From the NCBI GenBank assembly GCA_027946365.1, contig JAPEUQ010000018.1, forward strand, positions 806,001-870,000: DNA of 64,000 bases, read 5' to 3'. The notes beneath the pieces are model-generated. The model did no database searches. It was not told the origin of the DNA and was given only the letters and a program-made list of their open reading frames with translations. Shown here in pieces: positions 35,075 through 41,370 of the stretch (its first letter is position 1; each line of letters opens with the position of its first letter). The position numbers and the translations under genes were made by a program. The DNA comes from Kalmusia sp. IMI 367209 (Eukaryota > Ascomycota > Dothideomycetes > Pleosporales > Didymosphaeriaceae).

Positions 35075-35364
35075 TATAACGGGGTGATTATAAGGCTGTC
35101 TTAAAGGGGTTAAGTAGGAAATGAGGGCGTATAGGGTTATATAGTTATAAGAAGTGAACGTTAATTAACTACTATAAGTATTAATTACTAATAAGATTAA
35201 TAGTAGTCTTCTATAAGGAATTATTTATAAGAGAACTTAATGGATTAACGATGAGGGTTATTAGTAGTCATCTATTATCTCTATATACTACTATCTAAGG
35301 TTGACTCTGTGGGCTCTATAGATAGAGCCTACAGAGTCGGCTCTGCGGGCTCTATAAATAGAAC
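35075..35364 (-). repeat. Right LTR (5' LTR) of Gypsy B, first part
   Basis: These 290 bp match the left LTR from its TGTAATGGGG start (here TATAACGGGG). They stop at the hAT insertion point within AATAGAAC. The remaining 146 bp resume at 41,371-41,516, so the reconstructed length (436 bp) agrees with the left LTR (440 bp). Confidence 0.85.
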
Positions 35365-35380
35365 TAGACTGGCAAATGGG

Positions 35381-35520
35381 TATAGGTTAGGTTAGGGTTA
35401 GGTTAGATTACATAAGACCCTAACCTAATCTATATCTAAACCCATTAATTTAGCGCTAGTAATAGGTATAGGTTAGGGTTAGGTTACTAAAATCAGGGTT
35501 GGGTTAGGGTTGGGGATATG
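35381..35520. repeat. Left telomere-like subterminal repeats of the hAT element
   Basis: Imperfect TTAGGG-type units (GGTTAGGTTAGGGTTAGGTT, then GGTTAGGGTTAGGTTACT and GGGTTGGGTTAGGGTTGGGG) occur with one inverted block (CCCTAACCTAA at about 35,425). A related array lies inside the right end in the complementary orientation. Confidence 0.8.
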
Positions 35521-35819
35521 GTTATGTCTAGGTCTGAGTAATCATAATCAATTAATATATTTCTATTTACGTCTTAGTCGTTTTTTAATTATGATTATTG
35601 TTAAGGTGGATACTAGGGTAGCTAGGTAATATCAACTATCACGCATTTATTATAGTTAATTATAACAGTATAACTAGATTCATTACTACTAGAGCTTTAT
35701 AACCTATAACTACTACCCCTAATAGGTTTTCTCCTTAATTTAATAGAACGTATAGGATATAGTATCTTTGGTAGTAATACTTTGCTAAATAAGAATCTTT
35801 AACCTAAATTATAACCCTT

Positions 35820-36280
35820 TTTTGCATGGATCGCATTCATTTGGCAGTCTAGGAAAATAAGTATTTACTTAATAGTTAATATACTGATTAGAGGTACATA
35901 CCTTCAAGATATCCAACTATGAACGCCTTAGTAGCTTCTTAAAGAACACTTAGTGTAGAAGCCTAGATGCGTAAGTCTGGCTTATAGGTATAGACTAGCT
36001 CGCGAACAAGACGTGAGAATGAAAGCTTATAAATAAGTAGCTCTATAGTTTTTTGATATTACCTAATCTCTCTAAGCGCCACCACTATATCCTATTAGCT
36101 TAAGAATATGATTAGAAGCTATAATAACTTACTACCTAGCTTAAAGCGCCGCTTTTTCTTCGTATTGCCAGCAATCTTCTCGCGCGTAGCCTTACTAGCT
36201 AGATCTTTTTTAGGAGCTTTTCTGCTAGTTACTAGCTTATAGTAAGGCTTTTTAGTAGCAACTTATTTAGATCTAGCTAT
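35820..36280 (-). pseudogene. Histone H3-like gene inside a hAT transposon, RIP-inactivated
   Basis: The minus strand encodes a histone H3 variant. Exon 1 runs 36,280-36,133, exon 2 36,084-35,902, and exon 3 starts at 35,848. The introns are 48 bp (GTAAGT, GATATAG) and 53 bp (GTATGT, CCTAG), and both joins keep the frame. The tail reads ARSK*VATKK (H3: ARTKQTARKS) and SRKAPKKDLASKATR (H3: GGKAPRKQLASKAAR). The fold reads RRFKLGMVALREIR*YQKT, then LVRELVYTYKPDLRI*AST, VL*EATKAFIV and NAIHAK. Loop 1 is not lengthened, so it resembles H3 rather than CenH3. All four stops are TAA/TAG that C-to-T change can make from Gln codons, three at Gln positions of H3, and the start ATG is ATA. The part after AIHAK diverges and its exon structure is uncertain. 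Capture by, or domestication within, the transposon is inferred. Confidence 0.88.
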
Positions 36281-36800
36281 TATAGGTAGAGTTTGTAGAG
36301 TAGCGATAAAAGTTAGAGCAGTTAAAAGTAGAAGTAGAAAGTAGAAGTAGAAAGTAGAAGTTTAGTTGCTAAAGCAATAGTTATATAGTAATAAATATAG
36401 AAGTGAGAAAGTAAAGATGAGAGGGAGAAAGTAAAGGTAAGAGGGAAATATAAAAGTTGGGTAAGCTAATTTATAGACTCTATTAGCGTATATCACAATA
36501 ACTCTATGATAAATTTCCGTAATAATTCATATAGAGAAAGAGCTTAAGATACGCTTTTAATTAATACTCTTACTATAGTAATGTGACTTTTTTTGGTCGC
36601 TATATGCGTATACGTAATATACAATTATTATTATTTATTATTGTTGTACTACGCTAGTATTACGTACGGGCCACTAAATCTCGCTTAACTATATCTATAG
36701 TTAGTCCCCTATCAACTTTCTTCTATCTACCTTCTACTATTACACTTTTATAGAATTACTCTATAAGTTACTATATACCTTTATTACAGTTTCTGCGTAA

Positions 36801-38013
36801 TGAAGTCTTCACCTATTAAGTAAGAGCCTATTAAAGAGACCGATTATCTAGATCATCCTAAGGGTTTACTGCCCAGTATTAAGCGCGAGATACCAGCTGG
36901 ATATAACTATAATGAGTGGGATAAACTTATAGAGATATTTATTCTAGTTTATTATCATAGTATAAACTAATTTATATAGGGTTTTACTTCTAAAGAGCAA
37001 GAAATCAATTATATCCTCTTACTATATAGATAGAGCGGTTCTCAAAAAGGTCGTCCTATAAACTTATTAATACTATTTAAGGGCGTATTTAGTAATAGTA
37101 CTCATGCTGTTTAGTAAAGAGATTAAGCTACTCTATATAATAGAGACTAAGGCTATTAAAAGTATTAATACTGCTGATCGTTCTGCCAAAAGTATACTTA
37201 AGAAGAGACTTAAAAAATAAGACACGTATACTTCTCTGTCTGAGGATATAAAGAAAAACTACCTTAAGATAGAGTAGAAGAAGCTTTTAGATTAACGCTT
37301 TTAGAATTAGAAGAGTAGTAAGTTATAATAGTAATTTATCACATATTTATACTTATAAGGTGTAGGTAAATAGCTAGTAGTTTAGCTACAACGAGTCCAC
37401 CAGAAATGGGAGAAGCTTAATTATAAAGTTTCCCTTAGGCAGCACTATAAATCCCTAGAGAAGCTAGCCTAGGCTAGTAAAAAGCTCTCCTAATAGACAA
37501 CTCCAAGGCCGTAGAGAGTTACAACTCTATAGATCTGGCGGTGCCCTTAAGAAAATTATATAAAATATCTATAAAGATGGCTTAGCAAAGCTTAAAAGTA
37601 ATATATTTAAAAGTAAAGAGGCTAAAGCTGATTAGTAACAATTTATAGATGGCCTTACTAAAGAAGAGTTAGCTATAGTAATAGATAAGGACTAGTAGTA
37701 AGTTTATTACATTCTTTTATTACGCTTATATACTAATTATACTAGACGTTGTAAGCCTACATCTATCCTTAAGTATATATCTAGGGGAGAAGATATTACG
37801 CTTAAAAGTAATTTGCCATATATTCTTGGCGATGAGAGTGATGAGTGTAAAGAAGAAGTTAACTATAACTCTAAGATTAACGCTGCGTATAATAAGGGGG
37901 GATAATGAATATAAAACCTCTACTAATAAAGATAAGGATGAGGATAATAATAATAGTAAGGAGGAGTTTAAAGACTTTACAGATTTTAAGGGGTTTTCTA
38001 ATAAAGACGATTG
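36801..38013 (+). pseudogene. Second unknown ORF of the hAT element, RIP-damaged
   Basis: A coding-like frame starts ATGAAGTCTTCACC at 36,801 and continues, with frame changes and TAA/TAG stops, to the TGA at about 38,013. Early segments read IKREIPAGYNYNEWDKLIEIF; later ones KAIKSINTADRSAKSILKK and LQRVHQKWEKLNYKVSLRQH. The end is very acidic and Asn/Lys-rich (DKDEDNNNSKEEFKDFTDF). The WDKLIEIF start and basic middle could suit a DNA-binding protein, but I recognise no family. It lies between the H3-like gene and the transposase. Confidence 0.45.
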
Positions 38014-38366
38014 AGTGTTAGAGTCTACTATAGAATAAATACTTAAATATTAGAAGATAGATCTTAATTAAGTTTTAGCACTCTGCTTAACTGTAATTAG
38101 CTAGTAATAGTTAATATAGTCAATAATTATAGATTATTTACCTAGAATGTAAACATATCATTTATGATTTTAATACTCACTTATTATGGAATGTACTTAG
38201 GAATGTAAACAGACGTACTAGAATATCATAAGCCCTACACCCTATCTTATAGTTATGAATGGAAACATACGCATTAAACCCTCTCAAGCTATTAATATAT
38301 CTCATAACTCCTTTAGTTTTATCACATCTTTTTATTACACTACTATCCTTATTCATTCTACTTATG

Positions 38367-40990
38367 GCATCTGCTCTTCAATCCCCACAGTTTCCACTTA
38401 TCCTTAATTAATTCTAATTAAGCGCCCCCAAATTATTAGAGGGGAACTTAGAACACCCTAATATTAATTAAATATCCATCTACAAATAATAAATATAATG
38501 AGGAATAAAGCGAAATTCGTTCTATATAGAATAAGTAGTAGAGTAAAACTATATGGGCTATAGATCCTTTAACTCATAACCTATAGTAGAATTTAACCTC
38601 TCATTTTAGCTAAATCTAGACCCAATTTAAAGAGGCCGCATAGTATATAGATGGTCGCCTATATATATTCTGTCTTAATTGCGGATTTACACTTTAACAT
38701 CCAACAGTCAAAATAATTAAAACTAAGCATCTTATGAATTACCTTAATACTCAATCTTGTAAGGAGACTCTAACTCCTATATATATTTAGTTATCTATAC
38801 CTACGGCCCGGCCTCTACATTATTAAAATACTATAACACCAGTCCCATTGTATTCTCCTATGACCTATAAGAATGAACTTATATAGGTGGTAATAGACAA
38901 CAACTGGTCTTTCTGAATAGTAGAGAGGCCATCCTTTCAACAACTTCCTTCAATACCTTAGGCCCAATACTATAATAATAAGCCGTTATAAATTATAGTT
39001 GATATTCCAGGATTAAGTTAAAATAGCTAAAGCTTCTCTACTTTATAATCTTTATAAAACTACGAAGATCTCAATTGCCTTAGATATTTAGTCTATAAGA
39101 AACCATCTTAGCTTTCTTGCAGTAAAGGGGTACTATATTAATAATAACTAGGAATTTTATGAGAAGCTACTTGATTTTATCCCAATTTGTGGAAGCCATA
39201 TAGGTACTTCTATGGTATTAGAAGTACTACAGGTTCTATCTAATACAAATACTAAGTAGTAACTTCTAGCTATTATATATAATAATGCTAGTAATAATAG
39301 AACACTAACTCATACTATCTAAACTTAACTATAAGAAGAAGGTATTAATTAGGATTCTACTAAGAATACGGTTCTATGCCTCGCTCATATTATTAATCTA
39401 GTTGTCTAGGATATTATTCAGCATCTTAAGCTAGCAGCTCCTAGTGAGCTAGAGGTTAAAGAGAATCTATAATGGCGCTATATAAATAAGATTTAATTAG
39501 AAATTTTAATACCGAATTCTCTTTGGAAGGTAAGCTAGCTTTTATCACAGATATTTATTATAGACTAAGTTATAGCTAGCTCTAGGCAATATATAAAGTG
39601 ATTAATTAATCCCTATAATGTTTTAAACGTTTTATTACTACTTAGTAATCCCTACCACCAAAAGAACGTCTCTCTATTATATAAGACGTGAGAACTCGTT
39701 AGAATTCGACGTTCGACATGTGTGACCGCGTAGTTAAGCTCCAGTCATATATTAATAAATAGCTTAAATAAGAAATTAACTTAAAAACGACTCCTCATAT
39801 TACTAGGGCTACTAGTAATAATGATAATGCGGAGGTAGATTTCTATAACCTTAAATAACTTTAACTATCTTATACTGAGTAGCACCACCTTAAGCTTATC
39901 ACAGCTATACTAAAGAGATTTAAGGATACAACTGACTCTTTGAGCCAGAATTAAAAATCACAGATCTAATATATCTAGCTTATATATAACTAACTCTTTA
40001 ATTTTTTTAGATAAGATGACGGAAGAGCTTAGTGAAGATTTAAAGAATAGAGATAACATAGAGTGGCCAATAGTAGTAAGAGCTATAGCTAGAAAAGGAT
40101 AAGCTAAACTAAGTAAGTACTATTCGAAAATAGATATAGAGTGGGGCTTCTTATTTAACTGCGTAACTATTCTTGATCTAACATAAAAGCTTATAGTATA
40201 TAAGGTACTATTATTATAGCTATTTATTATAGTAATCACTAATACTATCTATAGGATAATACTTAGGAAGCTTAGGATAAGTATAACTATCATCAGTAAT
40301 TTCTTCAATACCTTAATCACTATAATAATAAAGAAACCAGAGATTTTACTCTAGTCTTAACTATCTATCCTAGATAATTATTAGGTATAGAGTGGTTCCG
40401 AAGCCCCCATCCTTAAACTAATTATAGTTAAGTAGTATTTTAGTATCTAGCCAAAACCAGGGTACTAGCTTACAACATATGGAAGAAGAGCAAGGGGCAG
40501 CACGTCAGAAAGAAGAAGCTTATCTAAGTACACCTCATATTATTATAGGTGAATCTTTTGATATTTTACAGTGGTAGAAAGTAAATAAGAATACTTATCC
40601 TTATCTTACCTAAATTGTAAAAGATATTCTACCTATTTAGATTACTATAGTAAGTATTAAGCGTATTTTTAATATTATAAGAGATGTAATTGGAGATCAG
40701 AGACACCATCTTTCAGCCTAGAGAATTTAGTAGATTATGTTTTTTAAGCATGTAATTTTTAAGAGAAGGAGTAATATATTATTATAGAGGATAGCCTAGC
40801 ACCTTATAATAGAGTAAATGATCTTTTTAAGCTTCTAACCTATTTAGATCATATAGATAGTATAGAGGAGGAAGAGATTACAGAGGAGAAAGAGGTTATA
40901 GATAAGGAAGAGATTATAGAGCAGGAAGATATTGTATATATTCCTAGTATAAATAGGGAGCAAATACTCTAACCATATAAACATTAAAGG
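38367..40990 (+). pseudogene. hAT-family transposase, RIP-inactivated
   Basis: Starting near the ATG at 38,367 (MASALQSPQFPL), the plus strand encodes a hAT transposase in several frames with TAA/TAG stops. A BED-type zinc finger is visible at about 38,670-38,765 (CLNCGF, then KHLMNYLNTQSC). The catalytic core shows GSHIGTSMVLEVLQVLSN, YNNASNN (39,277-39,297) and CLAHIINLVV (39,377-39,406). The C-terminal dimerisation region appears at about 40,560-40,690 (LQW*KVNKNTYPYL, VKDILPI). An acidic tail (EEEEITEEKEVIDKEEI-like) ends near 40,975. Order and spacing fit the family. No functional protein can be made from it. Confidence 0.85.
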
Positions 40991-41154
40991 GTTTAACCTC
41001 CTTTACGTTACCGTGTTTAATAGCTATTATAAATAAATAGTTTATATCTCTAACTTCCGCTAGTAGAGTGTTCTATAAAAGTTATAGACGTTTCTCTAAA
41101 TATACTTTCTAGTAATAGAATTATATAAAATATTAATATAAATTACCGTTATAT

Positions 41155-41350
41155 AAATCCAACCTAGATAGGAACCCTTAACCCAACCTATACCCAAGGT
41201 CCGTGCGACCTAACCCTAACCTGCACCTAGGGTCTATATAATCTAACCTTAACCTACACCTAAGGTTCGTGCGACCTAACCCCAACCTATACCTAATGCT
41301 TAGTAATAGCTAACCTAACCCCAACCTACCTATGATTAACCCCAACCCAT
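41155..41350. repeat. Right telomere-like subterminal repeats of the hAT element
   Basis: About 195 bp of CCTAACCCTAACC-type repeats interleaved with a 35-40-bp unit (CTACACCTAAGGTTCGTGCGA type, at least three imperfect copies). They end at the TIR CCCATTTACCAGTCTA. Their strand is complementary to the left array, so the telomere-like repeats are oriented symmetrically. Confidence 0.8.
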
Positions 41351-41370
41351 TTACCAGTCTAAATAGAACC

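Follow-up and report, generated by a model that had tools for sequence, protein, structure and literature searches.

A histone H3-like gene with two introns in a multi-copy hAT element of Kalmusia sp. IMI 367209

The element and its genes

The window analysed here is a stretch of 64,000 nucleotides from Kalmusia sp. IMI 367209 (assembly GCA_027946365.1, contig JAPEUQ010000018.1, positions 806,001 to 870,000), and window positions are counted from its first letter. Between positions 35,365 and 41,361 it carries a 5,997-bp hAT element (GC 0.31) that encloses three genes: a histone H3-like gene (H3L), a central gene and a hAT transposase gene. The element is flanked by an exact 8-bp target-site duplication, AATAGAAC, at 35,357–35,364 and 41,362–41,369, as stated in an earlier note on this DNA. 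Its terminal inverted repeats (TIRs), TAGACTGGCAAATGGG and CCCATTTACCAGTCTA, are 16 bp long with a single mismatch, and we take their motif to be hAT-like. The transposase, in an open piece of the copy L025, contains Dimer_Tnp_hAT (PF05699, 8.5e-19) near its C-terminus, so that the 8-bp duplication, the short TIRs and the transposase domain together identify the element as a hAT.

H3L lies on the minus strand and consists of three exons, at 36,133–36,280, 35,902–36,084 and 35,735–35,848, the left end of the last being approximate and counted from the copy L022. The two introns, at 36,085–36,132 (48 nt) and 35,849–35,901 (53 nt), both have GT..AG splice signals. The earlier note had recognized the three-exon gene, the splice signals and the start at 36,280, all of which hold; its left limit at 35,820 does not, as the gene continues about 85 bp further left. 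The window copy is damaged by changes of the type caused by repeat-induced point mutation (RIP). Its start codon is ATA where 13 of the 26 near-complete copies described below have ATG, and four in-frame stops in exons 1 and 2, three of them in exon 2, replace Gln codons that undamaged copies retain. These changes had been listed before; a 1-nt insertion after AIHAK in exon 3 and a CAG-to-TAG change later in the original frame of that exon had been missed.

The central gene is at 36,800–38,014 on the plus strand, probably in four exons. It is RIP-damaged in the window, but could be read from the copy L027 as a protein of 357 aa with a strongly acidic C-terminus. The starts of H3L and the central gene diverge across a gap of about 520 bp (36,281–36,799), possibly a shared promoter. 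The transposase gene, also RIP-damaged, occupies 38,364–41,020 on the plus strand; its start is approximate, and the span covers introns and indels alike. At the left end of the element are subterminal repeats, GGTTAGGGTTAGGTTAG, at 35,377–35,520, with inverted counterparts at about 41,176–41,328; they resemble the telomere repeat. Just outside the left TIR, an imperfect palindrome, GACTCTGTGGGCTCTAT..ATAGAGCCTACAGAGTC, was seen by eye at 35,303–35,365, with a partial repeat towards the insertion site.

Copies in the genome

The genome searched comprises 42.8 Mb in 30 contigs. An H3L segment gave 36 matches, which correspond to at least 34 loci once two short ones (126 and 100 bp) are set aside. 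In a search with the whole element, which scored 25 of 65 candidates, 28 matches were listed; among these, at least 23, including the window copy, are 5.6 kb or longer, and all the long ones reach both ends of the element except those at C26:20826, C4 and C6. We retrieved 29 regions, of which 26 contain near-complete elements (5.69–6.00 kb, window copy included) and three partial ones. Nine of the near-complete copies had been picked by the whole-element search and not by an H3 match. H3L is in register in all 26 aligned near-complete copies. Target-site duplications of 8 bp are exact in 18 of them and have one mismatch in another; none was found in the remaining seven, three of which are incomplete in the alignment.

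Linkage was also examined independently of H3L, by searching the genome with an 801-base segment of the transposase gene. In 29 of the 36 resulting matches an H3L match lies upstream on the right strand at 2.5–6 kb, and in 25 at a distance of 2,986–3,089 bp. A 26th, C13:564651, has an H3L match at 3,061 bp, although the automatic pairing took a farther one. Seven of the 36 had no H3L match upstream within the 2.5–6 kb range, and one of these (C13:569363) comes from an interrupted copy, split by another, with its left half and H3L at C13:558918; on that contig one copy (561092–567055) apparently sits inside another (558918–560846 plus 567712–570905). The earlier note had allowed for the H3-like sequence being a separate insertion, nested in a single hAT copy. 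Both results speak against this, the shared position of H3L in every aligned copy and its linkage to 29 transposase matches, and we consider it almost certainly wrong.

The copies differ greatly in damage. GC content is 0.40 in ten of the 26, 0.38 in two and 0.21–0.31 in 14, the last clearly RIP-damaged. The earlier note had proposed looking for less mutated copies, and within this genome ten of the near-complete elements proved almost free of RIP. Differences among copies are overwhelmingly transitions, which is, judged from the alignment, the pattern of RIP; the copy L046 is an exception, with 84 transversions. Because the ten copies with GC 0.40 and the two with GC 0.38 carry just 1–18 transversions each relative to the column majority, the spread of the element is recent. 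These little-damaged copies combine few transversions with 9–88 indel columns each, and many of the indels look like uncorrected assembly errors. L046 was dropped as a measure of selection: 36 of its 38 clean transversions fall in the left, indel-rich half, and age is no likelier to account for them than recombination or poor sequence close to a contig end.

Among the 26 copies, L022 alone retains the start, both introns and an open H3L frame, of 147 aa, although it has no clean target duplication itself. The other little-damaged copies have 1–2-nt indels in the H3L frame, or stops (L032 and L021). The earlier view that the gene was intact before RIP is supported.

H3L is a diverged member of the histone H3 family

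The spliced L022 product has matches to Pfam Histone (2.1e-32) and to a solved H3 chain (2.9e-43), and by its core histone fold and its best matches it is a member of the histone H3 family, in agreement with the earlier identification of the gene. It keeps the motifs PGTVALREIR, LLIRKLPF and NAIHAKRVTI. The tail, ARSKQVATKKPRHKLATGGKAPKKDLASKAAREK, retains K4, K14, K18 and K23, and about six residues are inserted before TGGK. By N-terminal register K9 is present, with the adjacent R8, S10 and T11 changed, and the position of K27 is occupied by Glu. We take the numbering of these tail residues, and the role of the K9 and K27 residues in silencing, as assumed background.

H3L is 61.9% identical to the host H3 over 126 columns and 54.3% identical to the core of the host CenH3. 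In a 19-row tree it forms a clade (support 99/98) with P0045, a partial histone-fold protein from Paraphoma chrysanthemicola to which it is 73% identical over 122 columns, and with three metagenomic proteins, apart from both canonical H3 and the host CenH3. These four relatives had been selected for good scores in an H3 protein search, H3L was flagged as a long branch, and the host's was the one CenH3 compared. Canonical H3, to which H3L is far from near-identical, and CenH3, as represented by the host's, were rejected as identities for H3L. Introns interrupt the host H3 gene at codons 8 and 120, and H3L at the equivalents of codons 45 and 106. By identity, clade and intron positions, H3L did not arise recently from the host gene, in agreement with what the earlier note had concluded from the window alone. 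A viral origin was considered and rejected as well: one scan of viral_contigs with H3L gave five stretches that matched the pattern, none of which encoded a relative.

Relationship to known H3-carrying hATs

The central protein has no Pfam domain above the cut-off. It gave 12 database matches, and the 11 with organism names all come from Pyrenophora, Bipolaris, Alternaria, Boeremia or Stemphylium, genera that we take to belong to Pleosporales. The two best, from P. seminiperda and Pyrenophora tritici-repentis (Ptr), are 49–50% identical over 89–94% of the protein. An AlphaFold model of a Ptr member (11 sequences) is mostly helical and confident at about 81–180. In P0131, from Ptr, a portion of the central protein is continued by a hAT C-terminus; this protein matches the Kalmusia element in pieces, in the same order and on the same strand, at 31–38% for the central gene and 47–67% for the transposase.

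The earlier note knew of no hAT with H3 cargo, and here it has to be corrected. Among the titles listed and the passages opened in our literature search, two papers concerned H3 in fungal hATs, Manning et al. 2013 (PMC3538342) and Dhillon et al. 2019 (PMC6710886). Manning et al. describe H3L-hAT of Ptr, about 5.6 kb long and present in near-identical copies, with a chimeric 2.3-kb short form. Its H3-like gene is reported to have expressed sequence tags, and the product to carry tail insertions and to be neither H3 nor CenH3. P0131 is consistent, as a sequence, with the published chimera, and through it the other Ptr homologues can be assigned, provisionally, to the published element.

The Ptr and Kalmusia elements are alike in enclosing an H3-like gene, a central open reading frame and a hAT transposase within one pair of TIRs, and both occur in near-identical copies, at about 5.6 kb (PMC3538342) and 6.0 kb. 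The central frame and the transposase have homologues among Ptr proteins, and the two H3-like genes may correspond too. The two elements differ in the clear RIP damage of 14 of the 26 copies here, and in their central proteins. Because the latter are only about half identical, the Kalmusia element is another, diverged element; it probably belongs to the same family as the Ptr H3L-hAT, by homology for the central gene and transposase and by extension for H3L. It is a new, multi-copy and partly undamaged relative of the 2013 element, not a new phenomenon.

Dhillon et al. describe another element, from Pseudocercospora fijiensis and five other Mycosphaerellaceae. It shares the 8-bp target-site duplication, H3-like cargo, heavy RIP and AT-rich blocks, but it is about 9.5 kb long and carries one or two intronless H3 copies, whereas H3L here has two introns. 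No dimerization domain was found in it and all copies are inactivated, in contrast to the little-damaged copies of Kalmusia. Its authors saw no nucleotide similarity between the Mycosphaerellaceae and Ptr elements.

Possible role of H3L

In the published work, the histone H3 of fungal hATs is treated as a host gene that was captured and amplified. With a second, diverged element that has an intact copy and an H3L with its own introns, one can test whether transposons retain histone variants for their own benefit, and the H3L copies supply sequences that can be expressed and on which selection can be measured. Since H3L has its own introns, differs by about 38% from the host H3 and occupies the same place in every aligned copy, it most likely belongs to the element as a standing part and is not a recent capture from the host. 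The recurrence of the three genes in a second, diverged element also suggests a standing part.

The earlier note suggested that the histone might shape chromatin at the element or mimic host nucleosomes; altered chromatin had already been raised as a possible effect by Manning et al. (PMC3538342). We tentatively favour a three-gene hAT family in which H3L is a standing component and forms nucleosomes that evade silencing, while regarding this, taken as a whole, as somewhat short of probable. H3L would be built into nucleosomes on the element's DNA, perhaps after delivery by the acidic central protein. Because Glu takes the place of K27 and the R8-K9-S10-T11 context is lost, we propose that such chromatin would be poorly marked by the host H3K27 and H3K9 silencing enzymes. 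Young copies could then stay transcribable until destroyed by RIP in meiosis, and selection would keep H3L in the element. A stronger form, in which a transposon lineage has kept a histone variant of its own while several Pleosporales genera diverged, with H3L and its acidic partner as a two-gene chromatin kit that evades H3K27/H3K9 silencing, seems unlikely to us; if true, it would make this a selfish element with its own nucleosomes.

Several results weigh against silencing evasion by a standing H3L. The Glu at K27 and the broken K9 context are limited to this H3L among the members of its clade: all four relatives have ARK at 27 (ARKS in P0045, whose sequence lacks the extreme N-terminus), and the three with an N-terminus (P0053, P0055 and P0059) have a K9-like context. 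The model of the central protein is weak (mean pLDDT 64.1), and Foldseek with it found no match among PDB folds, the best E being 4.8. Two H3 searches scored 7,994 and 7,992 matches, and among the 120 that were listed the Ptr H3L was not recognized. In 17 of the 29 retrieved regions, H3L is present by construction, as they were picked by an H3 match, and no H3L match is in range of the transposase matches at C29:1580334, C25:2472887, C25:2472253, C18:10526 and C13:144023/146390. In the literature, Manning et al. (PMC3538342) suggested drift, and Dhillon et al. (PMC6710886) judged the Ptr event recent and independent. In the tree of the latter authors the H3-like proteins of Ptr lie nearest to original H3 proteins, which argues against a deep H3L lineage in Ptr.

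Close behind comes the explanation that H3L is useless cargo whose intact look is due only to the youth of copies that decay has not yet reached, which we regard as a serious contender. Transduplication is the published reading for both Ptr (PMC3538342) and the Mycosphaerellaceae (PMC6710886), and because the little-damaged copies are nearly alike, recent spread alone explains the intact frame within this genome. Useless cargo fits less well with a frame that has survived about 38% divergence from the host H3 with the H3 fold, PGTVALREIR and AIHAKRVTI kept, or with the recurrence of the three-gene set in an element that has a central protein of no more than about 50% identity. H3L might instead act in transposition and not in silencing, helping the transposase to act on target DNA that is nucleosomal or subtelomeric, the central protein serving as an adaptor. 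The telomere-like subterminal repeats, the divergent H3L and central gene starts and the position of the loci (22 of the 34 H3L loci are no more than 100 kb away from a contig end, a placement expected for about 14%) point in this direction. The end bias may reflect subtelomeric targeting or contig breaks in repeats: contigs tend to end in repeats, so it may be an artefact of assembly, and one contig of only 50 kb holds two of the 22 loci. We consider a role in transposition improbable.

Other observations

The copies L022 and L034, near opposite ends of contig C26, have a common left flank, GGTAGTTTACTA, of about 600 bp at 88% identity, which suggests exchange between chromosome ends. The genome also contains another hAT-like group, at 24–35% identity and with mostly open frames, several members of which are near contig ends (C23:19137, C28:13504, C27:12699, C30:8600 and others). 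The H3L search detected no H3L belonging to this group beside its loci; the closest one lies 5 kb from C30:8600 and is part of the C30:13603 element. In the window itself, about 40 kb (24,000–64,000) is an AT-rich, RIP-type compartment with GC of 0.15–0.32, while most of the first 23 kb has GC of 0.40–0.58.
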